Source: Rhodobacter maris (GTDB lineage: Bacteria > Pseudomonadota > Alphaproteobacteria > Rhodobacterales > Rhodobacteraceae). From it: 64,000 bases of DNA. The notes under the pieces are model-generated. The model was not told the DNA's origin. It did not search any database and saw only the letters and a program-made list of their open reading frames with translations. Every line of letters starts with the position of its first letter. Position 1 is the stretch's first letter. The position numbers and the translations under genes are program-made. The stretch spans positions 62,001-126,000 of the forward strand of contig NZ_OBMT01000005.1 in NCBI RefSeq assembly GCF_900217815.1, read 5' to 3'. Below are positions 7,523-33,516 of this stretch, piece after piece.

Positions 7523-8512
7523 ATGGCGGAAATCACGGCGTTCCTCGCACGTCACGGCTGGGGTACGGCAGAGCGTCGGCCGCTCGCGGGGGATGCCTCG
7601 GCGCGCCGTTATGAGCGGATCCGGCACGGCGGGCAGAGCGCAGTACTGATGATCGCCCCGCCCGGCGCGGAATTCGCGCGATTTCTGAGCGTCGATGCCT
7701 GGCTTCTTGCGCAGGGCTTTTCCGCGCCGCAGATCCTTGCCGCTGCGCCCGAGACCGGATTGATGCTGCTTGAGGATTTTGGCGATGCGGTGCTCGCCCG
7801 GCTCCTGACGCTTCAACCGGAAAACCAACCCGCCTTTTATGCCGCAATCACCGATTTCCTGATCGCGCTCCATGCCTGCCCGGTGCCCGATTTCCTCGCG
7901 CCGCTCGACGGCCCGGCGCTGGCCGAGCTGGTTGGCCTTGTGCCGGCCTGGTATCCGCTGGCAGACTTGGCCGCGGGAGCCGAGCTCGTGCCGCTCATCG
8001 CGTCACTTTGGGCTGAAACAGAGCCTTTTGCACCGGTCATGTGCCTGCGCGATTTCCACGCCGAGAATGTGATCTGGCTGCCCGGCCGCGCCGGCTCCGC
8101 CCGCCTCGGTCTTCTCGATTTTCAGGATGCCGTCGTCGCGGCTCCGGCCTATGACCTCGTTTCGGCGTTGCAGGATGCCCGGCGCGATGTCCCCGCTGCG
8201 ATCGAGGCGCGCGAGCGGGCGCGCTACGTCGCGCTGCGGGGATTTGATCCGGTGCAGTTCGAGGCGAGCTATGCGCTTCTTGGCGCCCAGCGCGCGCTGC
8301 GGATTCTTGCCATTTTTGCGCGGCTCTGCCTTGCGGGGGGCAAGCCGCAGTATCTCGCGCTGATCCCGCGCGTCTGGGGGTATCTGCGCCGCAATCTTGG
8401 GGCGCCCGGGCTCGCGCCGCTGCGCCGCGTGGTCGACGCCGCGCTTTTGCCGCCCACCCCCGATCTGCTGGCAAGGATGGAACGCGAATGCGGCCAACAC
8501 CTGATGCGCTGA
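7523..8512 (+). CDS. amgK: AmgK-type MurNAc/GlcNAc anomeric kinase
   Basis: A 329-residue aminoglycoside-phosphotransferase-fold kinase with the Brenner-like catalytic motif CLRDFHAENVIWL and the metal motif LLDFQDAVVAAPAYDL. AmgK phosphorylates N-acetylmuramic acid at C1 in the peptidoglycan recycling route that bypasses MurA and confers fosfomycin tolerance in pseudomonads. Assignment rests on the fold plus its partner murU, whose start lies inside the last 25 bases of this gene. It begins directly after the tsaE stop. A copy of the dispersed AAACAGAG motif lies at 8015-8030, within WAETEPF. Confidence 0.88.
   Translation: MAEITAFLARHGWGTAERRPLAGDASARRYERIRHGGQSAVLMIAPPGAEFARFLSVDAWLLAQGFSAPQILAAAPETGLMLLEDFGDAVLARLLTLQPENQPAFYAAITDFLIALHACPVPDFLAPLDGPALAELVGLVPAWYPLADLAAGAELVPLIASLWAETEPFAPVMCLRDFHAENVIWLPGRAGSARLGLLDFQDAVVAAPAYDLVSALQDARRDVPAAIEARERARYVALRGFDPVQFEASYALLGAQRALRILAIFARLCLAGGKPQYLALIPRVWGYLRRNLGAPGLAPLRRVVDAALLPPTPDLLARMERECGQHLMR
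8015..8030 (+). repeat. Dispersed motif copy in amgK
   Basis: GAAACAGAGCCTTTTG, a 16-base copy of the GRAAYAG-AGM-CTRTTTC motif found in several unrelated genes of the window. It reads Glu-Thr-Glu-Pro-Phe and uses ACA, CCT and TTT codons, unusual in this gene. Confidence 0.5.
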
Positions 8513-9177
8513 TGCTTTTTGCCGCCGGGCGCGGCACGCGGATGGGGGCGCTGACGCAAACCCGGCCGAAGCCTTTGATCGAGGTTGCCGGGCGGCCCCT
8601 GATCGCATCTGCGCTTGATCTCGTGCGGGATGCCGGGCTGGGCAAGGCCGTCGCCAATGTCCATTATTTCAGCGATCAGCTGCGCGCTTATCTTGCGGGC
8701 AGCGAGGTCGAGATCTCCGACGAAAGCGATCTGTTGCTCGAAACCGGTGGCGGCCTGCGCAAGGCATTACCACTGCTGGGGCCGGGGCCGGTTTTCACGC
8801 TCAACACCGATGCTGTCTGGACCGGGCCGAATGTGCTTTCGACTCTGCGCGAGGCATGGGACGGAGAACGGATGCGCGCGCTGCTTGCGCTCGTGCCGCG
8901 GTCCGCAGCCACCGGGCACACCGGAGCAGGTGACTTCGACCTCGACCCCGATGGCCGGATCCGGCGCGGCACGACCTATGTTTATACCGGGGCGCAAATC
9001 CTCGATCCGGCCGGAATAGAGACGGTTTCCGAGCCCGTCTTTTCCCTCAACCTGATCTGGACCCGAGCAATTGCCGAGGGTCGTGCCTATGGCGTGGTGC
9101 ATCGGGGGGGCTGGTGCGATGTCGGCCGACCGGATTGCATTCCTCTTGCCGAGGAGATGCTTGGCCATGGCGCCTGA
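8488..9177 (+). CDS. murU: MurU, MurNAc-1-phosphate uridylyltransferase
   Basis: A 229-residue sugar nucleotidyltransferase with the N-terminal signature LMLFAAGRGTRMGALTQTRPKPLIEVAGRPLI, the substrate loop LLETGGGLRKALPLLG and the metal Asp in FTLNTDAVW. MurU makes UDP-MurNAc from MurNAc-alpha-1-phosphate, the step after AmgK, in the cytoplasm. ATG 8488 overlaps amgK by 25 bases and gives the usual N-terminus; a later ATG at 8512 would cut into the first strand. The end overlaps addB by 11 bases, so the run is one transcript. Confidence 0.92.
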   Translation: MRPTPDALMLFAAGRGTRMGALTQTRPKPLIEVAGRPLIASALDLVRDAGLGKAVANVHYFSDQLRAYLAGSEVEISDESDLLLETGGGLRKALPLLGPGPVFTLNTDAVWTGPNVLSTLREAWDGERMRALLALVPRSAATGHTGAGDFDLDPDGRIRRGTTYVYTGAQILDPAGIETVSEPVFSLNLIWTRAIAEGRAYGVVHRGGWCDVGRPDCIPLAEEMLGHGA

Positions 9178-12103
9178 GCCGAAGGTCTTCGCTTTGCCAC
9201 CCGGTGTGGATTTCGCCCGCGCGCTGGTGTGTGGCCTTGTGGCGCGCCTTGGCGACGCTCCGCCCGAGGAGATGGCGCAGACCCGTCTCTACCTCAACTC
9301 CGGCCGCATGCAACGCCGTGTGCGCGAGGAATTCGACCGCCTCGGCACCCGGTTTTTGCCGCGGCTCGCTCTCGTGAGCGATCTGGCGCGGGCCCCCGTG
9401 CCGGGGCTCGCACCCGCGATGCCGCCGCTTGGTCGCAAGCTCGAACTTGCCCGCCTCGTCGACCGGCTCGCGCGCGGCCTGCCCGCCTTCGAGACCGGGG
9501 CGGGGCTTTTCAGCCTCACCGACAGCCTCGCCGGTCTGATGGCGGAAATGCAGGGGGAGGGGGTAACCCCCGAGGTTTTCGAGCGCCTCGACATCCGCGA
9601 CAGCCATGCCGAGCACTGGCGCCAGAGTCTGCGCTTCATCCAGATTGTCGCGCGCTATTTTACAGCCGAGAACGCATCTGACCCGGAGCGGCGTCAGCGC
9701 CTCGTGGTCGAGAGCCTCGCGCGGAGCTGGGCCGAGGCGCCCTCGGACGAACGCATCGTGATCGCCGGGTCCACCGGCTCGCGCGGGGCGACGCGTCTCT
9801 TCATGCAGGCGGTGGCCGCACTGCCCAGAGGCGCGCTTGTGCTGCCCGGCTTCGATTTCGACATGCCTGAACCGGCATGGAAAGCGCTCTGTTCCGACGC
9901 ATTTCCGATCGAGGATCATCCGCAATACCGCTTCCTCGCGTTGCTCGGGGCGCTGGGCATGACGCCTGCGCAGGTCGCACGTTGGAGCACGGCGGCACCG
10001 CCCGCGCCAGCGCGCAACGCGCTGGTTTCGCTCGCACTGCGCCCCTCACCCGTCACCGATCAGTGGATGACGGAGGGGCAGGCACTGGAAAACCTGCCCG
10101 CCGCCTGCGCGGGCCTGACGCTGATCGAGGCGGCCGACCCGCGGCAGGAGGCGCTGGCGCTTGCCCTCGTGTTGCGCGAGGCGGTCGAACGCGGCGAGAA
10201 AGCGGCGCTGATCACCCCCGACCGGATGCTGACCCGGCGCATCGCTGCAGCGCTGGACCGTTGGGGCATCGTTCCCGATGATTCCGCGGGCCTGCCGCTG
10301 AGCCAGTCGCCGCCGGGGCGGCTGATCCGCCATCTGGCGCGGATGCTCGGACGTCCGCTCACGCTGGAGGGTCTGCTCGTGATCCTCAAGCACCCGCTAA
10401 CCGCCACCGGCGCGGCCGCGCGCGGCACTCATTTGCGGTTCACCCGTGAACTGGAGCTGAAGCTGCGCCGGGATGGCCCCGCCTTTCCCGATCCCGAGAC
10501 GATCCGCGCCTGGGGGTCGGCCAATTCACCTGAAGGCGCTGTCTGGGGAGATTGGCTCGCGGGGGTGATGACGAGGCTTCCGGCGCCCCCGGCGCAACCG
10601 GTTGCAGCCTGGCTTGCGCAACATCTCAAAGTGCTCGAAGTCCTCGCCAATGGCCCGGACGGCACAGCGGCGGCGAGCGAGCTCTGGCTTGGTGCGGCGG
10701 GCGATATGTGCCGGCGGCTTCTCGCAGAGCTTGGCGCCGAAGCGGAGGAGGCGCTGAGCCTGACCGCTGCCAATTACGCCGACCTGATCGACTCGCTTAT
10801 GGCGGGCGCGCAAACCCGCAACCCGCGCGCGGCGCATCCGCTGGTGAGCTTTCTGGGCACGCTTGAAGCGCGCGCCCATGGCGCTGATCTGGTGCTTCTG
10901 GCGGGTTTGAACGAGAAGAGCTGGCCCGAGGCGCCCGCCCCGGACCCATGGCTCAGCCGCAAGATGCGGCTCGACTCCGGCCTTTTGCTGCCAGAGCGGC
11001 AGATCGGACTTGCCGCGCATGACTTTCAGCAGGCGATTGCCGGGCCGCGCGTGGTGCTTTCGCGCGCGCGGCGGGATGCCGAAGCGGAAACCGTCCCGGC
11101 ACGCTGGCTGAACCGGCTCGTGAACCTTCTGGGCGGACTCAAGGACGCCGGCGGCCCGGATGCGCTGGCGCAGATGCAGGCGCGCGGTGCGCATTGGCGA
11201 GCGTTAGCGGGTGCGCTCGAGCGGCCGGATGCGCCGGTGCCCCCCGTGCCCCGCCCCGCCCCGCGCCCGCCGGTTGAGGCCCGGCCACGCCAGCTTTCCG
11301 TCACCGCGATCAAGACGCTGATCCGGGACCCCTATGCGATCTATGCCCGCCATGTGCTGCGTCTTGTGCCGCTTGAGGCCCTTACTCCCGAGCCCGATCC
11401 GCGGCTGCGCGGCGAGGCGCTGCATCAGATGGTTGAGCGGTTCGTGGCGCGCTTCGACCCGGAGCAGGCGCCGGATGCAGCGATCGCGGATCTGCTTATT
11501 CTGGCGGAACAGAGCCTGAAAGCCAGCGTTCCCTGGCCCTCGGCGCAACGGCTCTGGCTGGCGCGGATTGCCCGGATTGCGCCCGAGCTCGTGGCGCAGG
11601 AACGCGCGCGCCGGGCCGAAGGCGCCCCCGCGCTGGTAGAGGAAAAGGGAAAGATCACGCTCAAGGCGCCTGCCTTCACGCTGACTGCGCGGCCCGACCG
11701 GATCGACCTGCTGCGGGATGGCTCCGCGGTGGTCTATGATTACAAATCCGGTGCCCCGCCGAGCGATGCCGAGGTGAGGCATTTCGACAAGCAGCTTCCG
11801 CTTGAGGCTGCGATGATCACGCGCGGAGCTTTTGCCGCGCTTGGTCCGCGCGAGGTTTCGGCGATGCGTTATATCCAGCTGGGAGGCAGCGGGGCTTGCC
11901 GGGAGATCGCCCTTGGCCGCGAAGATGTGGCGCAGAGCTGGGAGGGGCTGCATCGGCTGCTTGCGCGTTACCTCTCGCCCGAGCAGGGGTTCGCGGCCCG
12001 ACGCGCGCTGCAAAAGGCGCGCGGGCCGAGCGACTATGATCACCTCTCGCGCTTCGGGGAATGGGATATGATCGATCTCTCGTGCCCGGAGGATGTGGGA
12101 TGA
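9167..12103 (+). CDS. addB: AddB, subunit of AddAB helicase-nuclease
   Basis: A 978-residue protein of the alphaproteobacterial AddB type. It begins MAPEPKVFALPPGVDFARALVCGL. There is no Walker A in the N-terminal part; a RecB-like nuclease domain near the C-terminus carries the PD-(D/E)XK motif VVYDYKSGAPP. AddAB resects double-strand breaks and loads RecA. GAGGAG nine bases before ATG 9167 supports this start, which overlaps murU by 11 bases; upstream in-frame ATGs lie inside murU. The stop overlaps the addA ATG (ATGA). Confidence 0.95.
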   Translation: MAPEPKVFALPPGVDFARALVCGLVARLGDAPPEEMAQTRLYLNSGRMQRRVREEFDRLGTRFLPRLALVSDLARAPVPGLAPAMPPLGRKLELARLVDRLARGLPAFETGAGLFSLTDSLAGLMAEMQGEGVTPEVFERLDIRDSHAEHWRQSLRFIQIVARYFTAENASDPERRQRLVVESLARSWAEAPSDERIVIAGSTGSRGATRLFMQAVAALPRGALVLPGFDFDMPEPAWKALCSDAFPIEDHPQYRFLALLGALGMTPAQVARWSTAAPPAPARNALVSLALRPSPVTDQWMTEGQALENLPAACAGLTLIEAADPRQEALALALVLREAVERGEKAALITPDRMLTRRIAAALDRWGIVPDDSAGLPLSQSPPGRLIRHLARMLGRPLTLEGLLVILKHPLTATGAAARGTHLRFTRELELKLRRDGPAFPDPETIRAWGSANSPEGAVWGDWLAGVMTRLPAPPAQPVAAWLAQHLKVLEVLANGPDGTAAASELWLGAAGDMCRRLLAELGAEAEEALSLTAANYADLIDSLMAGAQTRNPRAAHPLVSFLGTLEARAHGADLVLLAGLNEKSWPEAPAPDPWLSRKMRLDSGLLLPERQIGLAAHDFQQAIAGPRVVLSRARRDAEAETVPARWLNRLVNLLGGLKDAGGPDALAQMQARGAHWRALAGALERPDAPVPPVPRPAPRPPVEARPRQLSVTAIKTLIRDPYAIYARHVLRLVPLEALTPEPDPRLRGEALHQMVERFVARFDPEQAPDAAIADLLILAEQSLKASVPWPSAQRLWLARIARIAPELVAQERARRAEGAPALVEEKGKITLKAPAFTLTARPDRIDLLRDGSAVVYDYKSGAPPSDAEVRHFDKQLPLEAAMITRGAFAALGPREVSAMRYIQLGGSGACREIALGREDVAQSWEGLHRLLARYLSPEQGFAARRALQKARGPSDYDHLSRFGEWDMIDLSCPEDVG

Positions 12104-15100
12104 ACCGCCGCGACGCCGCCACCGAACGTCAGGTTCAGGCTGCCGATCCGGCGGGTTCGACCTGGCTTTCTGCCAATGCCGGATCGGGCAAGACGAAAGT
12201 GTTGACCGATCGGGTTGCACGCCTTCTTTTTGCCGGAACAGAGCCGCAGAAAGTGCTCTGCCTGACCTATACCAAGGCCGCCGCCGCCGAGATGCAGAAC
12301 CGGCTTTTGAAACGGCTGGGCGGTTGGGCGATGCTCGGCGATGCCGCGTTGACCGCCGAGCTGGAGGCGCTCGGCGTCGAGGGGCGGCTTGACGCCGGAG
12401 CGCTGGCCCGCGCGCGTCGGCTCTTTGCGCAGGCGATCGAGACCCCGGGCGGCTTGAAGATCCAGACGATCCACGCCTTTTGCGGGGCGCTGCTGCGCCG
12501 CTTCCCGCTCGAGGCCGGGGTGACGCATGGATTTTCGGAACTGGATGAGCGCTCGGCACAGCGGCTGCGCGAGGAAGTGCTCGAAGAGATTGCCTCCGGC
12601 CCCGACCGACCGGTGTTCGACCGCTTTCTCACCCATTTCTCCGGCGCAAGCCTGCCTGAGATCCTCGCGGAAATCAGCCAGAACAGAGACGCTTTCGAGA
12701 AGGCGTCCGACGAGGCCGGGCTGCGTGTTCTGCTCGATCTGCCGCAGGATCTGACGCAGCAGGATCTGCCGGATCGCGTCTTCGCCACGGCGGGTAGAGC
12801 ATTGATCGCCGATGTAATCGCGGCGGCAAAGCGCGACCCGGGCGTGAAGATGCAGAAACTGGCCGCCGGGCTTGCCGCGCTCGATCTGATCGCCCCGGGG
12901 CCTGCGGATCTCGCCGCGCTGGGTGCGCTTCTCATCGTTAAGGAAGGCACGCATGTCCAGAAGAAGCTCCTGGGCAAAGCTGTGGAAGAGGCGCTCGGCC
13001 CGGCCGCGACGGAAGCGTTCCAAGATCTCGCAGAACAGGTCTTTGCAGCAAAACGGCATGAACAGGCTCTTCTCACGCTGGAGCGAACGCGGACGCTTCG
13101 GGCATTTGCGCGCGTCTTCCTGCCCCGGCTCGCCCGCAAAAAAGCGCAGGGCGGCTGGCTCGATTTTGACGATCTGATCGAGCGGGCGGGGGCGCTGCTC
13201 TCGGATCCGGCCACCGCGCAATGGGTTCTGTTCCGGCTTGATGGCGGCATCGACCATATTCTTGTCGACGAGGCGCAGGATACCTCGCCCGGCCAATGGC
13301 GCGTGATCGAGCGGCTCGCCGATGAATTCACCGCCGGGGAAGGGGCGCGGCCCGATGCCCGGACAATCTTCGTGGTGGGGGATCGCAAGCAATCGATCTA
13401 TTCCTTCCAGGGCGCCGATCTGAGCCATTTCGAAGCGGTGAAGAGCCGTTTTGCCGAACGGTTCGCCGCGATTGCCAGACCATTGCAGGACGCTGCGCTG
13501 TTGCATTCCTTCCGGTCTTCGCTGGCGATCCTGCGGCTCGTCGATCTGACCTTTCAGGGGGCTGCCGCGGCGGGGCTGGGCGGCGCGCCCGAGCATCTGG
13601 CCTTTCATGCCGATCTGCCGGGGCGGGTGGATCTTTGGCCCGCGGTGCCGCCGCCCGAGGCGCCGGCGGATGACGACTGGGAAAACCCCGTCGATCTGCC
13701 CGGCGCCGATACAGCGCCGGTGGTGCTGGCCCGCGCCATCGCCGCCGAGATTGCCGCGATGATTTCCGCGGGAGTGCGTATCCCCGAACGCGATGGTGTC
13801 CGGCCGGTTCATGCGGGGGATTTTCTGGTGCTGGTGCAGCGCCGCTCCGATCTTTTTCTCGAGATCATCCGCGCCTGCAAGGCACAGGGGCTCGATGTGG
13901 CGGGGGCAGACCGGCTGCGCCTTGGGGGCGAGCTTGCGGTGCGGGATATTGTCTCCGTTCTGGCCTTTCTGGCCACGCCGGAAGATGATCTGGCGCTGGC
14001 CGAAGCGCTCCGTTCGCCGTTGTTTGGGCTTTCAGAGGACGCGCTGTTCCGGCTCGCGCATGGCCGGCCCGGATTCCTGTGGCAGGCCCTGCGCGAGAGC
14101 GATCACGAGGCGGTGCTCGAGGTGCTTGGCGACTTGCGCGACCATGCCGATTTTCTGCGTCCGCATGATGTGATCGAGCGGTTGCTGATCCGCCATGACG
14201 GACGACGGCGACTGGTGGCACGGCTCGGACCCGAGGCGGAGGAGGGGATCGATGCGCTGATCGCCCAGGCGCTCGCCTATGAACAAAAGGAAGTGCCGAG
14301 CCTCACCGGGTTTCTCGCCTGGCTCGGCGCTGACGAGATCGAGATCAAGCGCCAGCAGGAGGGGGCGGGGCGGGCGCTTCGGGTGATGACGGTGCATGGC
14401 TCGAAAGGGCTTGAGGCGCCGATCGTGGTCCTGCCCGACACCGGCCCGCGCCGGAGCTCTCAACGCGGCGAGATCCTGACCGCGGCAGGGGGCGTTGCGC
14501 TCTGGAAAGCGCCGGGAAAGTTGCAGCCCGAAGTGATTGCGGAAACGCTGGCGGAACGGGGGGGGCGCGAGGAAGCCGAGCGGCTTCGGCTGCTTTATGT
14601 GGCCATGACCCGGGCTGAAAAATGGCTGATCGTGGCGCAGGCGGGGGCCCACGAAAAGGCGCTCGGGAGTTGGTATGCGCTGATTGAGGCCGGTATGACT
14701 ATGGCTGGAACAGAGACTGTTTCAGCGCTTTCCGATGAGGTGCGCGCATTCGGAGCGATCCGCCGGTTCGCGCATGGCGTTTGGCCCGCGCCCGCCGGTG
14801 CGCCAGACGCCGCCGCGTCCCCTCCGCCGCAGCTGCTCCCCGACTGGGCGCAAGCCCGGCCTGCGCCCCGCCCCGCCTCTGTCCCCGCGCTGTCGGCTTC
14901 CGACCTTGGCGGTGCAAAGGTCGTTGCGGGCGAGAGGGCGCTGCCCGGGGCCGACGACGGGTTGCGCCATGGTCGGCAATTGCACCTTTTGCTCGAACAT
15001 CTTCCGCAATGGCCGGAGGAGCGCTGGCCAGAGATCGCCGCGGATCTGCTCGCCTTCGGCGAAGATCGCGCCGATCTGGCTGAAACAGAGACTGTTTTAT

Positions 15101-15474: not shown

Positions 15475-15527
15475 CGATGGCAGGAGCGCGCCCTACCTTC
15501 CGGCCAACCCACTTGCAGGAGATGCCC

Positions 15528-15848
15528 ATGGCCACCGTCGCCGTTACCGATGCCACTTTCGATGCCGAAGTGCGCCAGTCCGATATTCCGGTCGTCGTCG
15601 ATTTCTGGGCCGAATGGTGCGGCCCCTGCCGGATGATCGGCCCCGCGCTCGAAGAGATCGCCGCGGAAATGGCGGGCAAGATCAAGATCGTGAAAGTGAA
15701 CGTCGACGAGAACCCGGACAGCCCGGCGGTTCTGGGCGTGCGCGGCATCCCGGCGCTGTTCCTGTTCAAGGATGGTCAGGTCGTGTCGAACAAGGTTGGC
15801 GCCGCGCCGAAAGCGGCGCTGCAATCCTGGATCGAATCGGCGATCTGA
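15528..15848 (+). CDS. trxA: Thioredoxin 1
   Basis: A 106-residue classical thioredoxin with active site WCGPC in [16 protein letters not shown], the cis-Pro loop [12 protein letters not shown], and normal length. It reduces protein disulfides in the cytoplasm with electrons from thioredoxin reductase. ATG 15528 follows AGGAG by six bases; the longer frame upstream has no such site. It follows addA by 53 bases and ends at a strong terminator, so it probably closes the tsaE-trxA run. Confidence 0.96.
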
Positions 15849-15865
15849 GTCTTTGAAAACCGCTC

Positions 15866-15891
15866 AAAAGGGCGCCTTCGGGCGCCCTTTT
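15866..15891 (+). terminator. Rho-independent terminator after trxA
   Basis: A perfect 11-bp stem (AAAAGGGCGCC / GGCGCCCTTTT) closed by a TTCG tetraloop and ending in TTTT, 17 bases after the trxA stop. The A-run on the other side makes it potentially bidirectional. Confidence 0.9.
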
Positions 15892-24036: not shown

Positions 24037-27000
24037 TGCGCGCGATGACCCGAGGACTGATCGCCTTTCTGATGTTCCTGCTGCCGCTGCAGGCGTTTGC
24101 GCAAGACCTGAGCGACGCGAGCACGCGCGACCGTTCCTATCTGACCGGCTTGATTGAGGACAATCTCTCGGGGGCGGGGCGCGCGGTTCGGCTTGACGGG
24201 TTTCAGGGCGCGCTCTCCTCGCGCGCGACCTTCGAGACGCTCTCGATTGCGGATGACAACGGTGTCTGGATCACCGTGAAGAACGGCGCGATGCAATGGA
24301 ACCGCGCCGCCCTTCTGCGCGGCGAGATCAAGATAGACGAGCTTTCCGCCGAAGAGATCGACCTGCCGCGGTTGCCGGTAAGCGACGCCGGGCCCACCGC
24401 GCCGGAGGCGACGCCCTTCGCGCTGCCTGATCTGCCGGTGGCCGTCGACATCGGCACGGTGAAAGCGCAAAAGGTGGTTCTGGGCGAAACGGTGCTGGGC
24501 CAGGCGGTCACGCTGAAGCTCGAAGGGGCTTTGACGCTCGCGGGGGGCGCGGGCGAAACGAAGCTTGCCATCTCCCGCCTCGACGGGCCGAAGGGCGAGG
24601 TCTCGCTCAATGCAAGCTACGCCAATGATACCCACCAGGCGCTGATCGACCTTTTGCTGCGCGAGGGCGAAGGCGGGATTGCTGCAAGCCTCTTGCAGCT
24701 TCCCGGCACCCCCGCTTTGTCGCTCTCGCTCAGCGGCCTCGGTCCGCTGGAGGATTTCAAGGCGGATGTCGCGCTGAGCACCATGGGGCAGACCCGGCTC
24801 ACCGGCCAGATCGCGCTGAAAAAGACGACGGGCGAGCCGGCGGGAAGCGGCTTTGACCTGCATCTGTCGGGCGATGTCTCGCCGCTGCTTCCCGCCGAAT
24901 ATCAGGCGTTTTTCGGCACCGATGCCGTTTTGGCCGCGCGTGGCCAGCGCAGCGGCACCGGCATGGTGCAACTTGAAAGCCTCACGCTGTCCGGCGCGGC
25001 GGTGCAGGTCTCGGGCGCGCTCGATCTGCTGCCCGGCGGCCTGCCGGAGCGCTTCGATCTGCAGGCAAGGATCGGGCTCGAGAACGCGGAGCCGGTGCTT
25101 TTGCCGATTTCGGGACCGCAGACCCGGCTGCGCAAGGGCACCCTGAGCCTTGCCTATGACCGCAGCCGGGGCGAGGGCTGGCGGCTTGAAGGCGCGCTTG
25201 AAGGCTTGACTCGGGGCGGTGATGCGCTTGATCGCCTGAGTCTCACCGGCTCGGGCCGGATCGGCCAGCCGGTCGCGGGGAGCGCCAGCGCGGGCGGCAT
25301 CCTGCGCTTTGCCGCCGCGGGCCTCGCGCTTGCCGATCCCGGCATGACCGAAGCGCTGGGCGAGACGGCCTCGGGGGCGGTGCGGTTTTTCTGGCAAGCG
25401 GGCAAACCGCTCTCGGTGCCGCAACTGAACCTGATCGCAGGCGATTTCGGCGCCACGGGGCGGTTCAGAATAGACGGGGGGACAGTCTCGGGGCAGATCC
25501 GCGCCGATCATCACGCGCTTGCCAGCCTCTCGACACTCGCGGGCCGCAAGCTCTCGGGGTCGGTTGCGGCCGAGCTGAGCGGCGCCTACACGTTCCTTTC
25601 GGGCGCTTTCGATGCGGAGGCGGCGGTAACCGGACAGGATCTGCGGGTCGATCAGCCGCAGGCCGATGCGCTCCTCTCCGGTGTCTCGCGGATCACTGTT
25701 TCTGCCAAGCGCGACGCAACGGGGCTGACGCTGCGCAGCCTCGAGGCCAAGGCGGATACGCTGACACTGGCCGCCTCGGGCACGCTCGCCAGCGCCGCGA
25801 ATGACCTGACGGCAACGCTCGATCTGGCCGATCTCGCCCGGCTCGGCGGTGGCTACGACGGATCGGCCCATGCGCAGGCGCATCTTTCCGGCGCGCTCGG
25901 CGCGCGGCAAGTGGTGCTTTCGGGCAATGCCCGTGATCTGGCGCTCGCCCAGGCGGCGCTGAACCGGATTCTGGCGGGCGAAAGCCGTTTCAACGTGGCG
26001 CTGAGCGAAACCAAAGCAGGCTTCGGCCTCGCCGATCTGACGCTTGCCACCCCGCAGCTTTCTGCGAGTGCCAAGGCGCGCGCGGGGGCGGCGACGACGC
26101 TCGATCTGGGCCTGAAACTCGCCAATGCGGCGCTGCTCGCGCCGGGCTTTCCGGGGCCGGTCACGCTTTCGGGAAGTCTCGGGCAGGGGGACACAAACTA
26201 TGCGCTCGACCTTGCGGGCACCGGACCCGGCGGCACCAAAGCGGCAGTGAAGGGGAGCCTCGCGCGCGATTTCTCCACGGCGGATCTGACCATCAAAGGG
26301 CAAAGCGAATCGGCGTTGATCAACGGGTTGATCGAACCGCGCTCGGTCAGCGGGCCGCTTGCCTTCGATCTGAGCCTGCGCGGTGCGCCGGGGCTCCCGG
26401 CGCTTTCGGGCACGGTGAAGGGCAACGGCCTGCGCGTCTCGCTGCCGACGCTCGGGCAGGCGCTTCAGGATATCGCGATCACCGCCCAGCTTGGCAGCGG
26501 GACGGCGCAGGTTTCCGCGCAGGGCGCCTTTGCGGGTGGCGGCACGATTGCGCTCAAGGGCCCGATCGGGCTCGGTTCGCCTTTTCCTTCCGATCTGGCG
26601 CTCGTGCTTCAGAGTGCGCATCTGCGCGACCCCGAGCTTTACGACACGCGGCTTTCGGGCAAGCTTGGCATCAAGGGCGGGCTCACCGGCAATCTGCGCA
26701 TCGCGGGCGCGCTCAGCCTTGCGGAAACCGAGCTGCGCATCCCCTCCTCGGGGCTTGGCGGGGCGGCGGCGATCCCCGACATCACGCATCTGCATGAACC
26801 GGCGGCGGTCCGCACCACCCGCGCCCGTGCCGGGCTGATCGAGACGAAGAGCACAGGCGGATCTGGCTCATCGCGCACGGTTTCCCTCGATATCGCGCTT
26901 TCCGCCCCGAACCAGATCTTCGTGCGTGGCCGCGGGCTCGATGCGGAACTCGGCGGGCAGCTGCGCGTCACCGGTACCACCGATGCTATCGTGCCGATCG

Positions 27001-27572
27001 GCCAGTTCAACCTGATCCGCGGCAGGCTCGACGTGCTGGGCAAGCGCTTCACCCTCTCCGAGGGGCAAGTGGCGCTGCAAGGTGCGCTGATGCCCTGGGT
27101 GCTCTTCGAGGCGACGACAAGCCAGGAAGACACCGCGATCACGCTCACCCTTCAGGGTGCGGCGGCAGAACCGAGCCTCACGATCGCTTCCTCACCCGAA
27201 CTGCCGGAGGAAGAGGTTCTGGCAAGGCTTTTGTTCGACAAGGGGCTGACCAATCTTTCGCCCTTGCAGGCCGCACAGCTTGCCTCGGCAGTGGCAACGC
27301 TTGCGGGCAAGGGCGGCGAGGGGATCGTGTCGAAACTGCGCAAGGGGTTCGGCCTCGACGATCTGGATGTGGGCACCGATGACAGCGGCAATGCCTCGGT
27401 GCGGGCGGGCAAATACCTCTCCGAAAACCTCTATTCCGATGTCTCGGTCGATGCCTCCGGTCAGGCCGAAGTGACGCTAAACCTCGATATCACCAAGCAG
27501 CTTACCGCGCGCGGCACGGTCGGTTCGGATGGTGGCAGTGCGCTTGGCCTTTTCTTCGAGAAGGATTACTGA
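24036..27572 (+). CDS. tamB: TamB, AsmA-like bridge protein
   Basis: An 1178-residue protein with an N-terminal signal/anchor helix (RGLIAFLMFLLPLQAFA), a long repetitive beta-rich region typical of AsmA-like lipid-groove proteins, and a C-terminal DUF490/TamB domain (RVTGTTDAIVPIGQFNLIRGRLDVLGKRFTLSEGQVALQG through AEVTLNLDITKQLTARGTVGSDGGSALGLFFEKDY). It spans the periplasm and partners TamA; related proteins move phospholipids to the outer membrane. The start ATG shares a base with the tamA stop. It ends seven bases inside the convergent LysR gene. Confidence 0.93.
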   Translation: MRAMTRGLIAFLMFLLPLQAFAQDLSDASTRDRSYLTGLIEDNLSGAGRAVRLDGFQGALSSRATFETLSIADDNGVWITVKNGAMQWNRAALLRGEIKIDELSAEEIDLPRLPVSDAGPTAPEATPFALPDLPVAVDIGTVKAQKVVLGETVLGQAVTLKLEGALTLAGGAGETKLAISRLDGPKGEVSLNASYANDTHQALIDLLLREGEGGIAASLLQLPGTPALSLSLSGLGPLEDFKADVALSTMGQTRLTGQIALKKTTGEPAGSGFDLHLSGDVSPLLPAEYQAFFGTDAVLAARGQRSGTGMVQLESLTLSGAAVQVSGALDLLPGGLPERFDLQARIGLENAEPVLLPISGPQTRLRKGTLSLAYDRSRGEGWRLEGALEGLTRGGDALDRLSLTGSGRIGQPVAGSASAGGILRFAAAGLALADPGMTEALGETASGAVRFFWQAGKPLSVPQLNLIAGDFGATGRFRIDGGTVSGQIRADHHALASLSTLAGRKLSGSVAAELSGAYTFLSGAFDAEAAVTGQDLRVDQPQADALLSGVSRITVSAKRDATGLTLRSLEAKADTLTLAASGTLASAANDLTATLDLADLARLGGGYDGSAHAQAHLSGALGARQVVLSGNARDLALAQAALNRILAGESRFNVALSETKAGFGLADLTLATPQLSASAKARAGAATTLDLGLKLANAALLAPGFPGPVTLSGSLGQGDTNYALDLAGTGPGGTKAAVKGSLARDFSTADLTIKGQSESALINGLIEPRSVSGPLAFDLSLRGAPGLPALSGTVKGNGLRVSLPTLGQALQDIAITAQLGSGTAQVSAQGAFAGGGTIALKGPIGLGSPFPSDLALVLQSAHLRDPELYDTRLSGKLGIKGGLTGNLRIAGALSLAETELRIPSSGLGGAAAIPDITHLHEPAAVRTTRARAGLIETKSTGGSGSSRTVSLDIALSAPNQIFVRGRGLDAELGGQLRVTGTTDAIVPIGQFNLIRGRLDVLGKRFTLSEGQVALQGALMPWVLFEATTSQEDTAITLTLQGAAAEPSLTIASSPELPEEEVLARLLFDKGLTNLSPLQAAQLASAVATLAGKGGEGIVSKLRKGFGLDDLDVGTDDSGNASVRAGKYLSENLYSDVSVDASGQAEVTLNLDITKQLTARGTVGSDGGSALGLFFEKDY

Positions 27573-28465
27573 GCCGCCTCGGCAACCGTGCGGCCGATCC
27601 AGTCGCGAAAGGCGGCAAGCGCGGGGGAGGGCGTGACACCCGCGGGCCAAACGAGATGATAGGCGCCCACGCCGGAAACCACTTCGCCCGGCGCGGCAAC
27701 CAGCCGCCCCTCGGCGATCTCGGGGCGGGCGAGGAATTCGGGCAGGAGCGCGATGCCGAGCCCATGAACGGCGGCCTGCAGCATCGGCGCGAACTGATCG
27801 AACATCAGCCCGCCGCGGGAGGGGGCCGGGAGCCCGTGATGCGCGCACCAGCTCATCCAGGCATTCGGGCGCGATTCAAGCTGGAACAGAGATTGTTTGA
27901 GCAGGTCTTCAGGCCCCCGGAGCCGCTGCGCCGCCGCAAGGTCCGGGGAACAGGTGGCGAGGATGCGTTCTTCGAACAGCATCAGATGCTCGGCTTCGGG
28001 CCAGGGTCGGATGCCGAAATGGATCGCCGCGTCGAAGGTTTCGGTGGCGAAATCGAAAGGCCGCATCCGCGTGCCGAGGTTGAGCGTCACCCCCGGGTTT
28101 TCGGCCAGAAAGGCGGCGAGCCGCGGCGCGAGCCAGCGCGTGCCGAAAGTGGGCAGGATCGCGAGATTGAGCACCCCGCCGCCGGGGTTGGCGCGCAACC
28201 CCAGCGAGGCGCGACCGATGAGATCCAGCGCCTTGCGCACATCGCGCGCATAGGCAAGCGCGGCCTCGGTGGGCGTGAGCCGTCGTCCCTCGCGGCGGAA
28301 GAGTTGCACGCCAAGCTGCCCCTCAAGCGTTTGCACCAAACGGCTCACCGCGCCTTGGGTGAGGCTGAGCTCGCGCGCCGCAGCAGCGGTGGAGCCGGTG
28401 CGGCAGACCGCCTCGAAGGCGGAGAGGAGCGAGATCGAGGGCAGGTAGCGCCGCGGCAGGCTCAT
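27566..28465 (-). CDS. LysR-family regulator divergent from gcdH
   Basis: A 299-residue LysR protein: helix-turn-helix at about 8-65 (PSISLLSAFEAVCRTGSTAAAARELSLTQGAVSRLVQTLEGQLGVQLFRREGRRL), effector domain about 95-295. It is of the GcvA type (GTRWLAPRLAAFLAENPG). Its gene is divergent from glutaryl-CoA dehydrogenase, and regulators in this place (often called GcdR) usually control gcdH in response to glutarate or lysine catabolites; that role is inferred. A palindrome starts one base upstream of its ATG. A dispersed-motif copy (27883-27899) lies within its LKQSLFQ segment. Confidence 0.88.
   Translation of the reverse strand: MSLPRRYLPSISLLSAFEAVCRTGSTAAAARELSLTQGAVSRLVQTLEGQLGVQLFRREGRRLTPTEAALAYARDVRKALDLIGRASLGLRANPGGGVLNLAILPTFGTRWLAPRLAAFLAENPGVTLNLGTRMRPFDFATETFDAAIHFGIRPWPEAEHLMLFEERILATCSPDLAAAQRLRGPEDLLKQSLFQLESRPNAWMSWCAHHGLPAPSRGGLMFDQFAPMLQAAVHGLGIALLPEFLARPEIAEGRLVAAPGEVVSGVGAYHLVWPAGVTPSPALAAFRDWIGRTVAEAAQ
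27883..27899 (+). repeat. Dispersed motif copy in the LysR gene
   Basis: GGAACAGAGATTGTTTG on the plus strand, antisense to the gene. Thirteen of 17 bases equal the addA copies. Confidence 0.45.
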
Positions 28466-28484
28466 CTATGTGTTCCATACATAG
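28466..28484. promoter_or_regulatory. Palindromic LysR-type operator between LysR and gcdH
   Basis: CTATGT-N7-ACATAG is a 19-base interrupted palindrome containing a T-N11-A LysR box. It touches the LysR start codon (28465) and lies 72 bases before gcdH, the expected place for autoregulation plus activation of the divergent gene. Confidence 0.6.
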
Positions 28485-28555
28485 GTTGGGGCGGGATTAT
28501 CGCTGGATAGCGGCTTTCAACGCGCGCATAAAGCATGGAATGCATGGAGGACCGC

Positions 28556-29764
28556 ATGGCGCTGAAACCCAAGGACGCCCCCGATCTGGCCCGGTTCGAC
28601 TGGGAAGACCCGTTCCGGCTGGAAAGCCAGTTGAGCGAAGAGGAACACATGTTGCGCGATGCCGCCCGCGCCTATGCGCAGGAGAAATTGCAGCCCCGCG
28701 TGATCCGCGCCTTTGCGGAGGAAGAGACCGATCCGGCGATCTTCCGCGAAATGGGCGAAATGGGTCTTTTGGGCGTGACGATCCCCGAGGAATATGGCGG
28801 GCTTGGGGCCTCTTACGTGGCTTACGGGCTTGTCGCGCGCGAGATCGAGCGGGTCGACAGCGGCTATCGCTCGATGATGTCGGTGCAGTCGAGCCTCGTG
28901 ATGTATCCGATTTATGCTTACGGCTCGGAAGAACAGCGGCGGAAGTATCTGCCCAAGCTCGCAAGCGGGGAGTGGATCGGCTGCTTTGGCCTCACGGAGC
29001 CCGATGCGGGCTCGGACCCGGCAAGCCTCAAGACCGTCGCGAAGAAAACCGCCAATGGTTATGTGCTCTCCGGCACGAAAATGTGGATCTCGAACGCGCC
29101 GATTGCCGATGTGTTCGTCGTCTGGGCGAAGTCGGAAGCGCATGGCGGCAAGATCCGCGGTTTTGTGCTGGAAAAGGGTCTTAAAGGCCTCTCCGCGCCA
29201 AAGATCGCGGGCAAGCTGAGCTTGCGCGCCTCGATCACGGGCGAGATTGTCATGGAGGGCGTTGAGGTGGGCGAAGACGCGCTTTTGCCCGGCGTCGAGG
29301 GGTTGAAGGGGCCGTTCGGGTGCCTCAACCGGGCGCGCTACGGCATCGCCTGGGGCGTGCTGGGGGCGGCGGAGTTTTGCTTCCATGCGGCGCGGAGCTA
29401 TGGGCTCGAACGCAAGCAGTTCAACAAACCGCTGGCGCAGACGCAGCTTTTCCAACTCAAGCTTGCCAATATGCTCACCGAGATCAGCCTTGGCCTGCAG
29501 GCCTCATTGCAAGTGGGGCGGTTGATGGATGAGGCCAATGCCGCACCAGAGATGATTTCGGTGATCAAGCGCAACAATTGCGGCAAGGCGCTCGAAATCG
29601 CGCGGCACGCCCGCGACATGCATGGCGGCAACGGCATCAGCGGCGATTTTCAGGTGATCCGCCACATGGTCAACCTTGAGACGGTGAACACCTATGAGGG
29701 CACGCATGATGTTCATGCGCTGATCCTTGGCCGGGCGATCACCGGCTTGCAGGCGTTTTTCTGA
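28556..29764 (+). CDS. gcdH: Glutaryl-CoA dehydrogenase
   Basis: A 402-residue acyl-CoA dehydrogenase that oxidises and decarboxylates glutaryl-CoA to crotonyl-CoA in lysine, tryptophan and glutarate breakdown, using FAD. Hallmarks are [17 protein letters not shown] (FAD/substrate loop), [20 protein letters not shown], the Arg of [21 protein letters not shown], and the catalytic Glu in [22 protein letters not shown] 28556 has GGAGG six bases upstream; ATG 28535 in the same frame lacks one. It is divergent from a LysR regulator. The crotonase at 58.4 kb could act on the product but is not linked. Confidence 0.92.
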
Positions 29765-29773
29765 GCCTGCCGC

Positions 29774-30586
29774 TCAGGTCTCGGAGGGCTCTTCGGCCCG
29801 CACCGCATTGAGCGCGGCGCCGAAGAGCACCGAGAATGCGCCAAGATAGAGCCACATCAAAAGCGCGATCACCGCACCAAGCGAGCCATAGACCTTGTTG
29901 TAACTGCCAAAGTTCGCAAGGTAATAGGTGAGCCCGAGCGAGGCCGCGCCCCACAGAAACGTGGCCACCACGGCGCCGAGCGAAAAGAACGGGTCGCGCT
30001 GCGCGGGCTCATAGGGCGCGAAGCGATACATCACGCCGAGCACCGAGAGCATCAGCCCCACCATCGCCAGCCAGGGAAACCAGGTCAGCAGCCAGTTCAG
30101 AAGCGCATGGAACGGCAGGTAGTTCACGATCACCGGCACCGCGACGATGGTGGCCATGGCCAGAAGCATCACTCCTACAAGCGCCGCCGTCATCGCATAA
30201 CCAAAGACGAAGCTGAGGAAAGTGGCGCGCGCCCGGCTGCCGTGGATCAGGTTGAGCCCTTTGATCAGCGCATCTACCCCCGCGCGGGCCGACCAGAGCG
30301 CAAACAGGATCGAGACCAGCGTGCCCCAGCCGAGCGTATCGCGCGGCCCGTTGACAAGCCCGCTCACCTGCCCGTCCAGAATGGCATAGGCTTCGGGCGG
30401 GATGAAGTTCTCGGCCACCTCGAGATAATCACGGATGACGATCGGATCGGCCACTGTGCTCCAGATCGAGATTGTCGCCGTCAGCCCCGGAAACACGGCC
30501 AGCATCGCGTAAAAGGCCACGCCCGCAGAGATCAGGAAGATGTTGGTCCGGCTCAGCCGGTCGTTCAGTCTGACCAGAAAGCGCAT
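29774..30586 (-). CDS. YihY/BrkB-family membrane protein
   Basis: A 270-residue inner-membrane protein with about six transmembrane segments and the family phrases NIFLISAGVAFYAMLAVFPGLTATIS, RDTLGWGTLVSILFALWSARAGVDALIKGLNLIH and YKVYGSLGAVIALLMWLYL-like text near the C-terminus (SYNKVYGSLGAVI). Members were once called ribonuclease BN by error; the function is unknown, possibly transport. ATG 30586 is preceded by AAGGAG. It converges on gcdH with nine bases between stops. Confidence 0.88.
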   Translation of the reverse strand: MRFLVRLNDRLSRTNIFLISAGVAFYAMLAVFPGLTATISIWSTVADPIVIRDYLEVAENFIPPEAYAILDGQVSGLVNGPRDTLGWGTLVSILFALWSARAGVDALIKGLNLIHGSRARATFLSFVFGYAMTAALVGVMLLAMATIVAVPVIVNYLPFHALLNWLLTWFPWLAMVGLMLSVLGVMYRFAPYEPAQRDPFFSLGAVVATFLWGAASLGLTYYLANFGSYNKVYGSLGAVIALLMWLYLGAFSVLFGAALNAVRAEEPSET

Positions 30587-30694
30587 GAAATCTCCTTCCG
30601 TTGAACCTCTCCAAGGTAGCGCCTTGGGCCGCTTGCGCAACCGTGAGGGCCGTGCTCTCTTTGGGATCAGCGCCTTCGGGAGGGAGCGTCAGGG

Positions 30695-32032
30695 ATGGGC
30701 ACAGCGGTTTCATCGGCAGCTAGACAGGCACTGCTGCTGCTATTTATGGCCAGCGGGGCGCAGGCGCAGGCTCTGCCGCCGCCCTTGACGGAGGCGGATT
30801 TCTTCCCAGTGAACATGGAAGAGGCGCGGCTGGGCCAGCTTCTCTTTTACGACCCGATCCTCTCGGGCAACCGCAACATTTCCTGCGCGGGCTGCCACCA
30901 TCCGCGCTTTGGCACCTCTGACGGGCTCAGCCTCGGGCTTGGCGAGGGGGCGGTGGACCTTGGGGCGGCCCGCCATGTCACGGCGGAAAACACGCCCGAG
31001 CAACGCATTCCGCGCAACTCGCCCGCGCTGTTCAACCTTGGTGCGCGGGAGGTGACCCATCTCTTTCACGATGGCCGGATCGGGGTCGATCCGAGCCGCC
31101 CCTCGGGGATGCGCACACCGATGGATGAGGAGATGGTGACGGGCTTCGCCTCGGTGCTTTCGGCGCAGACGATGTTTCCGGTGCTTTCTCCCGATGAGAT
31201 GGCGGGGCATTACAACGAAAACGAGGTGGCGAAGGCGGTGCGCTCGGGCTTCATCACCGGCGAGAATGGCGCCTGGAGCCGGATTTCGGCGCGAGTTGCG
31301 GCGGTCCCGGCTTATCAGGCGGCCTTCGAGAACGCCTATCCTGAGATCGCCGCAGGAAGGCCGCTTGCCTTCACCGATATCTCAAACGCCATCGCTCAGT
31401 TCGTCGCCTTCGAGTGGCGTTCGGATACGAGCCCTTTTGATGCGGTTCTGCGCGGCGAGGCGGCTTTTGCACCGGAGGCGGCGGCGGGTGCGGATCTCTT
31501 CTACGGCGCCGCGGGGTGCTCAATGTGCCATTCCGGCCCGCTCTTGAGCGATCAGGGCTTTCATGCGATGGGAGCGCCGCAGCTTGGCCCCGGCAAAGCG
31601 GAGCGGTTCGAGCGCCATTCGCGCGACGAGGGGCGGTTTCGCGTGACGGGGCATGCGGAAGACATGTTTGCCTTCCGCACCCCCAGCCTGCGCAATGTGA
31701 TGGAAACCGGCCCATGGGGGCATGCGGGAAGCCACCGCGATCTGGCGACCTTCCTCGCCGATCATGCGCGGCGCGGGGACGCCTTGGCGGGCTATGACCG
31801 GGCGCAAGCTGTGCTGCCCGATCTGCCAAAGACAAAGCCCGATTGGGCCGAGATGGAGACACCCGATGATCTGGCGGCGATCCGCGCTGCAGCAGGGCCG
31901 GGCCAAGCGCTGCGCCCCGCAGATGTGGCGGCGCTGATGGCGTTTCTGGCAACGCTCTCGGACCCGGTCGCGCTCAAGGGGCGCCTTGGTATTCCCGAAA
32001 CCGTGCCGAGCGGGTTGCCGGTGGAGCGTTAG
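30695..32032 (+). CDS. Di-heme cytochrome c peroxidase family protein (MauG/CCP-like)
   Basis: A 445-residue exported protein: signal peptide at about 1-24 (ALLLLFMASGAQAQA), two haem c sites CAGCH (near 64) and CSMCH (near 274), and the family segment FAFRTPSLRNVMETGPWGHAGSHRDL. This places it in the bacterial cytochrome c peroxidase/MauG group, which either reduces H2O2 or oxidises residues in partner proteins. At 445 residues it is longer than classical CCP (about 330). The gene converges with, and overlaps by four bases, a tryptophan-rich CRTAC1-type protein, a possible partner. Which haem ligand replaces Met or Tyr cannot be settled by eye. Confidence 0.85.
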   Translation: MGTAVSSAARQALLLLFMASGAQAQALPPPLTEADFFPVNMEEARLGQLLFYDPILSGNRNISCAGCHHPRFGTSDGLSLGLGEGAVDLGAARHVTAENTPEQRIPRNSPALFNLGAREVTHLFHDGRIGVDPSRPSGMRTPMDEEMVTGFASVLSAQTMFPVLSPDEMAGHYNENEVAKAVRSGFITGENGAWSRISARVAAVPAYQAAFENAYPEIAAGRPLAFTDISNAIAQFVAFEWRSDTSPFDAVLRGEAAFAPEAAAGADLFYGAAGCSMCHSGPLLSDQGFHAMGAPQLGPGKAERFERHSRDEGRFRVTGHAEDMFAFRTPSLRNVMETGPWGHAGSHRDLATFLADHARRGDALAGYDRAQAVLPDLPKTKPDWAEMETPDDLAAIRAAAGPGQALRPADVAALMAFLATLSDPVALKGRLGIPETVPSGLPVER

Positions 32033-33516
32033 CGCGCGATCCGGGTCACCGCGTCGAGCGGCACGGTCTGCCACGGTCCGGCAATGCCATCGGGCCAGAT
32101 CACCCGCACCTCCGCTTCTGTTGCGGTGCCGAGCCCGAAATGCACAGGCCCTGCCGTGCCGCCTGCATGCCCGCCGCCCACCGTGACCTCCTGTGCCTCG
32201 GAATGCGCGCCCGCGCGCAGCTCCACCCAGGCGCCGATGGCGCGGGTGTTCGGCGCCTTCTGAAAAGGCTCTATTTCGGCCCAATGGCCGGTTTTTTCGG
32301 TTGCATTGCGCCAGATTTCCATCGCTACGCGCCGGTTCATCACCACGAGATCGAGCCGCCCGTCTGCGTTGAGGTCAACAAGTGCCGCGCCGCGCGCGCG
32401 TGCGGTGCTGGCGACCCCGGCCTGCGCGGCCGCTTCATGGAAGGTGCCGTCCTCCCCCTGCATCAACAGGTTGTTCGGGTCATGCGAGGCATTTGAGGGC
32501 ATCTGGTCGACATTGCCCTTGGCAATGAAAAGATCGACGCGCCCGTCGTTGTCCACATCGCCAAAGACCGGAGCCCAGCCGGTTGAGGGCCGCCCGTCGT
32601 CGCCGGAAAACGGTCGCTGCGCATAGGTGCCGAGACTATAGGGCGCATTCTCGTAGTGATCGCCGCGATTGATCTGCAAAAGCTGGTCGCCCATTGAGGT
32701 CATCATCACTTCGGGAAGCCCGTCGCCGGTGAGGTCGCGGCTCGCGATCCCCATGCCCCAGAGCGAGACATGCGGCCAGTCTTCCCGCTCGGCAAGCGGG
32801 TTCAGGCGGAACATCTGTTCATAGCCGCCGCGCACGTAATAATGCCGGTCGTTGGAGATCCGCAGCTCCGGCGTGCCGCTGCGCTGCCAATCGCTGATCA
32901 GCGCCGAGAGCGCGCAATAGCCCGGAGAAATAGGCTCTATTGCGCCGTATTTTTTGCCGTCCGGGCGGAAGAGCGCGCTTTTATCGCAGGCTTCGAAAGG
33001 CCCGTCGGCATTGGCGCGGTCCACGTAATTTCCAAAGAAAAGCGTGGGGAAATCATGCCCCTTCTCCCATGTTACGGTGAAGGAGGTGGTCCAGTCGTAA
33101 CGGGTGGGCAGGCCCCAATCCTCGGTGGCCTCTTCGAACCGGCAATTGCCCAGGCCCCGCCAGAGCTGGTTGGGCCCGGCGCGCAGCACGGCAAGATCGA
33201 GGGTTCCGTCACCGTCGATATCGAGCGGATAGGCGCCGGTCACGGCCAAAACAGGCTCTATATCGCCTTGATCAAAGCGCAAGGCGCCCCCCCGTTCAGA
33301 CCGGTTGATGAAGAGCGCTGCCGGGTTGGCGCCCCCCGCGGCAAAAAGATCTGGCCGCCCGTCTGCGTTACAATCGAGCACGGCGACGCCGCCGCCCACA
33401 AAATGCTCCCACCCGCCAGCATAGATTTGCGGATGCGGCAGGCCCGCTGCGTCATCGACAAAAAGCGGCTCTGCACAAGCCGGAAACGCGATAAGGCAGA
33501 GCGCGAGCCGTTTCAT
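32029..33516 (-). CDS. CRTAC1-family protein with FG-GAP/EF-hand-like repeats
   Basis: A 495-residue exported protein (signal peptide about 1-15, LALCLIAFPACA). It has at least five calcium-binding FG-GAP loops of the type DxDxDGxxD (DCNADGRPDL, DIDGDGTLDL, DLTGDGLPEV, DVDNDGRVDL, DLNADGRLDL) forming a predicted beta-propeller, then an ASPIC/UnbV-like C-terminal segment (EVTVGGGHAGGTAGPVHFGLG, VRVIWPDG). It is rich in Trp. Its role is unknown. Its ATG overlaps the stop of the ROK regulator gene (ATGA). The only three ATA isoleucine codons of the gene all fall inside copies of the dispersed motif. Confidence 0.85.
   Translation of the reverse strand: MKRLALCLIAFPACAEPLFVDDAAGLPHPQIYAGGWEHFVGGGVAVLDCNADGRPDLFAAGGANPAALFINRSERGGALRFDQGDIEPVLAVTGAYPLDIDGDGTLDLAVLRAGPNQLWRGLGNCRFEEATEDWGLPTRYDWTTSFTVTWEKGHDFPTLFFGNYVDRANADGPFEACDKSALFRPDGKKYGAIEPISPGYCALSALISDWQRSGTPELRISNDRHYYVRGGYEQMFRLNPLAEREDWPHVSLWGMGIASRDLTGDGLPEVMMTSMGDQLLQINRGDHYENAPYSLGTYAQRPFSGDDGRPSTGWAPVFGDVDNDGRVDLFIAKGNVDQMPSNASHDPNNLLMQGEDGTFHEAAAQAGVASTARARGAALVDLNADGRLDLVVMNRRVAMEIWRNATEKTGHWAEIEPFQKAPNTRAIGAWVELRAGAHSEAQEVTVGGGHAGGTAGPVHFGLGTATEAEVRVIWPDGIAGPWQTVPLDAVTRIAR
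32262..32277 (-). repeat. Dispersed motif copy 1 in the CRTAC1 gene
   Basis: Sense strand GAAATAGAGCCTTTTC, encoding Glu-Ile-Glu-Pro-Phe with a rare ATA codon. Confidence 0.5.
32927..32943 (-). repeat. Dispersed motif copy 2 in the CRTAC1 gene
   Basis: Sense strand GCAATAGAGCCTATTTC, arms 6/7 complementary around AGC, encoding Ala-Ile-Glu-Pro-Ile with ATA. Confidence 0.5.
33247..33263 (-). repeat. Dispersed motif copy 3 in the CRTAC1 gene
   Basis: Sense strand ATATAGAGCCTGTTTTG, encoding Asp-Ile-Glu-Pro-Val with ATA. Confidence 0.45.

Follow-up and report, generated by a model that had tools for sequence, protein, structure and literature searches.

An intragenic near-palindromic motif concentrated around parS in Rhodobacter, a candidate mark of the origin domain

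Introduction

Why would a short near-palindromic motif recur inside unrelated genes of Rhodobacter maris, paid for with rare codons? The question is raised by a 64,000-nucleotide stretch of the R. maris draft genome (G000), positions 62001 to 126000 of contig NZ_OBMT01000005.1 (G000:C15:62001-126000, hereafter the window). An initial annotation, made from its letters, listed seven copies of a 16-17-base motif and three weaker relatives, and suggested a nucleoid-protein or segregation site, a recombination hotspot or an uptake tag. The answer that we reach is that the motif looks like an address label by which the origin-proximal part of the chromosome is recognised and organised.

Results

What does the motif consist of? 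Flank tallies and an iterated matrix give a consensus of approximately WTYNNGCYGRAAYAGAGMCTGTTTY, 25 bases in length. The flanks outside the search pattern are conserved, with G at position −2 in 66 and C at −1 in 63 of 69 matches, a set in which one species contributes two strains and one site is tallied on each strand; W-T-Y at −7 to −5 is also kept in these matches, and the iterated matrix agrees. The left half extends farther and tolerates less variation, so the site is asymmetric. The near-palindrome of the initial annotation is real but longer than the 16-17 bases first described. In the window, the pattern matched 11 times at up to three mismatches, against a shuffle mean of 0.53, a comparison that is optimistic because the pattern was derived from the window itself. 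In the whole R. maris genome (3.83 Mb draft) the same threshold gave 61 matches and the backwards control 29; a large part of this loose set is therefore background. At up to two mismatches, 8 of 15 matches lie on contig C15, and at up to one mismatch all 4 matches of the genome fall at C15:71.0-94.9 kb. The genome-wide search that had been proposed for the motif thus finds that it is not genome-wide. A k-mer count of the window under a third-order model places GGAACAGAG as the top 9-mer; a higher-order k-mer model of the window did not show the motif.

Where on the chromosome does the motif lie? Positions were measured from parS (consensus TGTTTCACGTGAAACA) as a stand-in for the origin, oriC. 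By this consensus parS is present in 17 of 18 Rhodobacter genomes, with two sites in each, and was not found in G012, an assembly that is 81% complete. In R. maris the two sites are at C15:45,388 and 47,287, beside the motif array. The long pattern WTYNNGCYGRAAYAGAGMCTGTTTY, allowed up to three mismatches, gave 142 whole-genome matches in 13 of the 18 genomes, against 6 in all for the backwards control; 133 of the 142 share a contig with parS and lie no more than 160 kb from it. On the closed chromosome of G003 (3.74 Mb), 11 of 12 long-pattern matches are at 17.7-81.8 kb and one is at 225.5 kb, with parS at 71-73 kb. Judging by eye from sequence, we take the genes ~70 kb before and ~3 kb after this parS pair to be dnaA-like and hemJ/maf-like, respectively.

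A matrix built from nine Rhodobacter regions, with G017 and G235 excluded, resolves the array more finely. Above 20 bits, G003 carries 24 sites from −109 to +10 kb of parS (stretch scanned, −211 to +148 kb; backwards control, 0), G017 carries 43 sites from −144 to +117 kb (scanned, −193 to +207 kb; control, 1), and G235, which belongs to another genus, carries 48 sites from −130 to +136 kb (scanned, −158 to +223 kb; control, 0). No site above 20 bits was found farther out in the scanned stretches of the three genomes; in G235 this leaves the two ends of the contig, 28 kb and 87 kb long, without one. Across the nine motif-bearing regions scanned, counts above 20 bits range from 20 to 48 and median neighbour spacing from 0.9 to 3.7 kb, often ~1 kb inside clusters. 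The suggestion of a nucleoid-protein or segregation site fits this placement, as the sites surround parS, and that of a recombination hotspot or uptake tag is at odds with an element that hardly occurs beyond ~150 kb from parS in either direction. A polar signal pointing along replication was considered and rejected, as plain counts show no consistent strand bias on either side of parS. We also note that a strong site (..GGAATAGAGACGCTTTC) recurs off the main cluster in several species, at G003:C1:225527, G001:C29:23546, G002:C9:51816, G016:C2:106285 and G017:C1:328220; it is 95-152 kb from parS in the three genomes where parS is on the same contig (+152 kb in G003, outside the stretch scanned).

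Is it the DNA or the encoded protein that is under selection? The initial annotation had argued for the DNA and named codon-preserving shuffles and a comparison of orthologues as checks, neither of which refutes it. Above 20 bits there are 17 hits in 197 genes of G000 (the genes of the whole contig), 21 in 130 genes of G003 and 17 in 102 genes of G009, whereas 20 codon-preserving shuffles gave means of 0.5, 0.4 and 0.55 and maxima of 2, 1 and 2, respectively; the matrices exclude the tested species, both strands were scanned, and overlapping hits were left unmerged in data and shuffles alike. In orthologues aligned from six genomes, the site is kept at the same column in the murU-like gene (6/6), in a LysR-family gene (6/6, antisense) and at addA columns 196 and 878 (5/6 each). 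In an alignment of the murU-like gene, the seven Rhodobacter genomes that carry its site all use the rare ATA for the isoleucine there. There is also turnover, with some other sites confined to one or two species. Where two other species have the amino acid in common, codon identity is higher inside sites (3147/4982, 0.632) than in flanking codons (37,871/69,889, 0.542) or farther away (394,229/665,658, 0.592). Among 231 sites above 16 bits, 205 are in called open reading frames (ORFs; 121 sense, 84 antisense) and 26 are outside, although the crude ORF caller misses some genes, such as the one that holds contig position 95248. Intragenic sites on both strands and in all frames argue for a signal at the DNA level. 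Together, the shuffles, the sites kept sense and antisense in orthologues and their joint absence from a genome that retains the genes (G005, below) support the conclusion that selection acts on the DNA itself. Promoter operators and RNA hairpins are disfavoured by the same mixed orientation and intragenic position.

A further comparison is with G005, a Rhodobacter genome in which the array is naturally almost absent. G005 retains parS (two identical sites) and orthologues of rho, coaE, dnaQ, addA and amgK/murU; it has one site above 20 bits in the 300 kb around parS and a single match to the 25-mer, off the parS contig. Its murU-like gene encodes Leu by CTG where site-bearing genomes encode Ile by ATA. 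A tree of eight proteins (2649 columns, G235 as outgroup) places G005 beside G010, within the genus and next to G009. G010 itself has three sites above 16 bits in the 40 kb examined, and its single 25-mer match lies near parS. It appears that G005 lost the array but kept the genes and parS, and such joint erosion of sites is what loss of a protein that reads them would be expected to produce.

How widely is the motif distributed? It is carried by many, but not all, genera of Rhodobacteraceae: 197 of 295 genomes of the family have a match, up to 22 in G235, and no control count exceeds 7. Across the class, in 289 sampled genomes of which four belong to the family, none outside the family has more than four matches and most have 0 or 1. 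Outside Rhodobacteraceae this pattern is at background; diverged forms could still exist there. In 14 motif-bearing genomes picked by hand from 14 other genera for having several listed matches, parS was found in all 14, and its contig carries one or more listed sites in 13. In 11 further genera, judged by clustering without reference to parS, all 16 sites of G270 fall inside 237 kb (genome size, 3.7 Mb), and clustering is also seen in G029 (11/11 on one contig), G033 (13/14), G241 (11/12) and G296 (14/17). In 80 addA neighbourhoods of named organisms the number of sites above 16 bits per 23 kb is 13-18 in Rhodobacter (four loci), 12-13 in Thioclava (four), 0-6 in Roseovarius and 1-6 in Shimia; others have up to 9 and many have none (control, 0-3), and having none at addA need not mean having none in the genome. 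Near-matches such as ATCGTGCCGGAATAGAGCGTGTTTT recur in genomes of the family (for example G146, G181, G219, G309 and G224) and are not obviously linked to parS; they may come from a single conserved gene and be background as far as the motif is concerned.

Within the window, 14 copies exceed 19 bits on a position weight matrix (PWM) built without the R. maris genome. The strongest (9013..9029, +, PWM 32.9), in a murU-like ORF, was missed by the initial annotation; it occupies the same alignment column in 6/6 Rhodobacter genomes and is absent from G005 and G235. Upstream of it is a copy in an amgK-like ORF (8015..8031, +, 27.8, a position given for the 17-base core) and downstream one in an addB-like ORF (11506..11522, +, 22.6), both found in R. 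maris only among the aligned genomes. The addA gene holds three strong copies, at 12680..12696 (+, 29.0; column 196 in 5/6 genomes), 14707..14723 (+, 27.9; column 878 in 5/6) and 15082..15098 (+, 30.1; column 1003 in 4/6), and a weaker one at 12235..12251 (+, 19.6). The copy at 27883..27899 (+, 26.1) is antisense in a LysR-family gene, as it is at column 191 in 6/6 genomes. Four copies lie in a CRTAC1/ASPIC-type FG-GAP gene, at 32261..32277 (−, 29.6; column 415 in 4 genomes), 32927..32943 (−, 26.7; column 193 in 4 genomes), 33248..33264 (−, 29.3) and 33461..33477 (−, 23.0). An FGGY sugar-kinase gene has one copy antisense at 39109..39125 (−, 23.6; column 323 in 3 genomes) and one at 39491..39507 (+, 27.4; column 450 in 5 genomes). 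A marginal site in a tsaE-like ORF (7408..7424, −, 16.4) is at the same column in 3 genomes.

The seven main copies first listed are present, give or take a base, at 26-30 bits. Of the three weaker relatives, those listed at 11506 (22.6) and 12681 (29.0) hold up and the one at 13060 (10.0) does not. Nine listed copies thus stand against the 14; besides 9013, those at 12235, 33461, 39109 and 39491 had been overlooked. The gene names given fit the Pfam domains of the ORFs that hold the copies, and each of the three ATA codons in the CRTAC1/ASPIC-type gene does fall within a copy. The copies do not stop at ~34 kb, as had been thought: the sugar-kinase pair lies beyond, and more sites follow past the window's end at 132.5, 133.2 and 138.7 kb of the contig. 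As a separate observation, the palindromic decamer TCGCGCGCGA has 10 counts over both strands of the window (5 places), against 3.06 expected.

Discussion

What reads the motif, and to what end? We propose that the copies are probably the sites of a sequence-specific DNA-binding protein that marks a domain of ~100-270 kb around parS, near the origin. The site is near-palindromic, which suggests that the protein would be dimeric, and because the array is centred on parS, its role would lie in the origin domain. By binding dozens of intragenic sites across this parS-centred domain, the putative protein would give the domain its identity through folding. Alternatively, it could work beside ParABS, tethering the domain to a cell pole or to the machinery of segregation, or it could link the domain with division. 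None of the 18 genomes of the family searched for PopZ (PF10691) has a match above the cut-off; G007 has one sub-threshold match, and the Caulobacter control was positive. Another way of handling the origin pole is therefore plausible. The result agrees with an excerpt of PMC5182065, in which many Rhodobacterales are described as lacking a conspicuous PopZ. In R. sphaeroides, oriC1/ParB1 is located at the old pole (excerpt of PMC6315104). A bolder version, to which we would give somewhat less than an even chance, is that Rhodobacteraceae, whose tested genomes have no recognisable PopZ, possess an equivalent of MatP/matS for the origin domain, in which a dedicated and so far undescribed protein reads dozens of intragenic sites, folds or anchors a domain of up to ~270 kb, and was lost with the sites in the G005 lineage.

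The alternative that survives best, which we consider unlikely, is that the copies are nucleoid-occlusion or septum-placement sites, at which a division regulator that binds DNA, as SlmA, Noc and RefZ do, would keep FtsZ off the origin or pole. Near-palindromic, origin-flanking sites at conserved positions resemble the RefZ-binding motifs (RBMs) of RefZ (excerpt of PMC6657595). Placement around parS also fits this idea; however, SlmA and Noc sites are spread over most of the chromosome and are not nearly restricted to ~300 kb. In R. sphaeroides it is MipZ that is reported to link chromosome segregation and division (excerpt of PMC6315104). Less likely again is titration or control of replication initiation, in which the sites, like datA or iterons, would soak up an initiator or inhibitor early. 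Origin-near sites would replicate early and double soon after initiation, as their position implies. Nevertheless, the motif is unlike DnaA boxes (consensus TTATCCACA), and one cluster would do for this purpose, yet the sites span ~260 kb in G017 and G235.

Could the sites instead belong to ParB? We regard secondary ParB sites, or sites of a second ParB-like protein, as slightly less probable still. The everted half-sites GAAACA...TGTTTC have their letters in common with the TGTTTC...GAAACA of parS and lie in the same chromosomal neighbourhood, and most Rhodobacter genomes have further ParB_N proteins. Against this, the ACGT centre of parS is missing from the motif, the conserved WTYNNGC extension is not in parS, and G005 keeps both parS sites and the adjacent ParB_N protein but not the motif; ParB itself is an unlikely reader of the sites. 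When the motif was counted at up to two mismatches in the 18 Rhodobacter genomes, G015 and G016 had 16 matches each, yet each has one ParB_N match. A second ParB of the Noc type is disfavoured on the same ground, as an extra ParB_N protein is not present in every motif-bearing genome.

A Chi-like recombination, DNA-uptake or gene transfer agent (GTA) packaging signal, or a mobile-element remnant, is very improbable. R. capsulatus makes GTA particles (PMC3423380) and three strong copies lie in addA, but such signals would be expected genome-wide and 11 of the 12 matches on the closed G003 chromosome fall within 64 kb. Moreover, the conserved genes that hold sites are of many kinds, and the sites recur at the same columns of their alignments. 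Any genome-wide element (Chi, uptake, restriction or KOPS-like) is rejected, as nearly all matches lie near parS. Finally, there is next to no chance that the consensus is an over-read coincidence built from chance matches in one window: the first pattern was window-derived and at up to three mismatches about half of its matches in its own genome equal background, but the motif is replicated by flanks outside the search pattern, in further species and a second genus, and by codon shuffles.

Several observations nevertheless weigh against marking of the origin domain by a dedicated protein. Proteins below 420 residues common to the origin regions of G017, G235 and G003, checked by eye with no domain scan, include no obvious binding-protein candidate, and G005 lives with almost no sites. 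The nine remaining long-pattern matches are off the parS contig (two each in G000 and G006; one each in G001, G002, G005, G007 and G009). The array is patchy, with G017 free of sites above 20 bits for ~98 kb (90-188 kb) and ~85 kb (224-309 kb) within its span, so part of the site pattern would be inherited along with the genes. No match was found in 98 of the 295 genomes of the family, and many others have just one or two. Among the picked genomes, the fragmented G130 has no listed site on the parS contig and G181 has 1 of 9; G203 and G224, outside that set, have four listed matches each, scattered. In the 11 further genera, G200, G133, G205 and G053 are loosely clustered and G111 and G114 are fragmented. 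One frame is preferred among the sense sites (75/121), partly from repeat counting of orthologous sites. The codon-identity counts pool related species, and their cells are not independent. We note separately that the G003 stretch (~83-134 kb) that matches much of the 224-309 kb block of G017 is also site-free.

The motif bears on origin recognition and positioning in alphaproteobacteria without PopZ. A dense, precisely defined and genetically removable array in the tractable R. capsulatus makes the proposal testable, and the motif can serve as bait for its protein. Similarly, comparing G005 with array-bearing genomes offers a phylogenetic filter for the gene of the binding protein. More broadly, it shows plainly how a signal linked to distance from the segregation site of the chromosome can shape coding sequence, even to the use of rare ATA codons.

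How does the motif compare with known systems? The initial annotation knew of no described element that matches, and in the open-access literature, with subscription papers and preprints outside the search, we found no such motif described for Rhodobacteraceae. In contrast to Chi of AddAB, the motif has no genome-wide over-representation. With parS/ParB it has a chromosomal region and the letters TGTTTC/GAAACA in common, but it is everted, with another centre and an asymmetric extension, and is not a palindrome of the TGTTTCACGTGAAACA type; parS is found separately. ZapT, a MerR-family protein of Caulobacter, is likewise alphaproteobacterial, with sites mostly within ORFs and biased to one domain, but these are terminus-proximal, occupy 10 positions and, in the excerpt of PMC7188993, yielded its authors no consensus motif. 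MaoP/maoS of E. coli is a site-specific system that gives the origin region (Ori macrodomain) its domain character, but it uses a single 17-bp maoS near oriC (excerpt of PMC5441646) and not a dispersed array of 20-48 sites above 20 bits. RefZ, a TetR-family tuner of septum position in Bacillus, binds near-palindromic motifs whose positions relative to oriC are conserved across the genus (excerpt of PMC6657595), and the positions here, measured from parS, are likewise conserved; there are five RBMs against 20-48 sites, in another phylum, and RefZ is linked to sporulation. Finally, matS/MatP of enterobacteria has many short sites dispersed over one chromosomal domain. Its consensus, GTGACRNYGTCAC, differs from the longer motif described here. 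There are 23 matS sites in the Ter region (excerpt of PMC5441646), at the terminus, where the present, denser array lies around the origin, with the 133 of 142 matches noted above lying near parS. Although membership of matS and maoS fails on sequence, place or number, we suggest by analogy that the motif may work as matS/MatP, RefZ/RBM or MaoP/maoS do.

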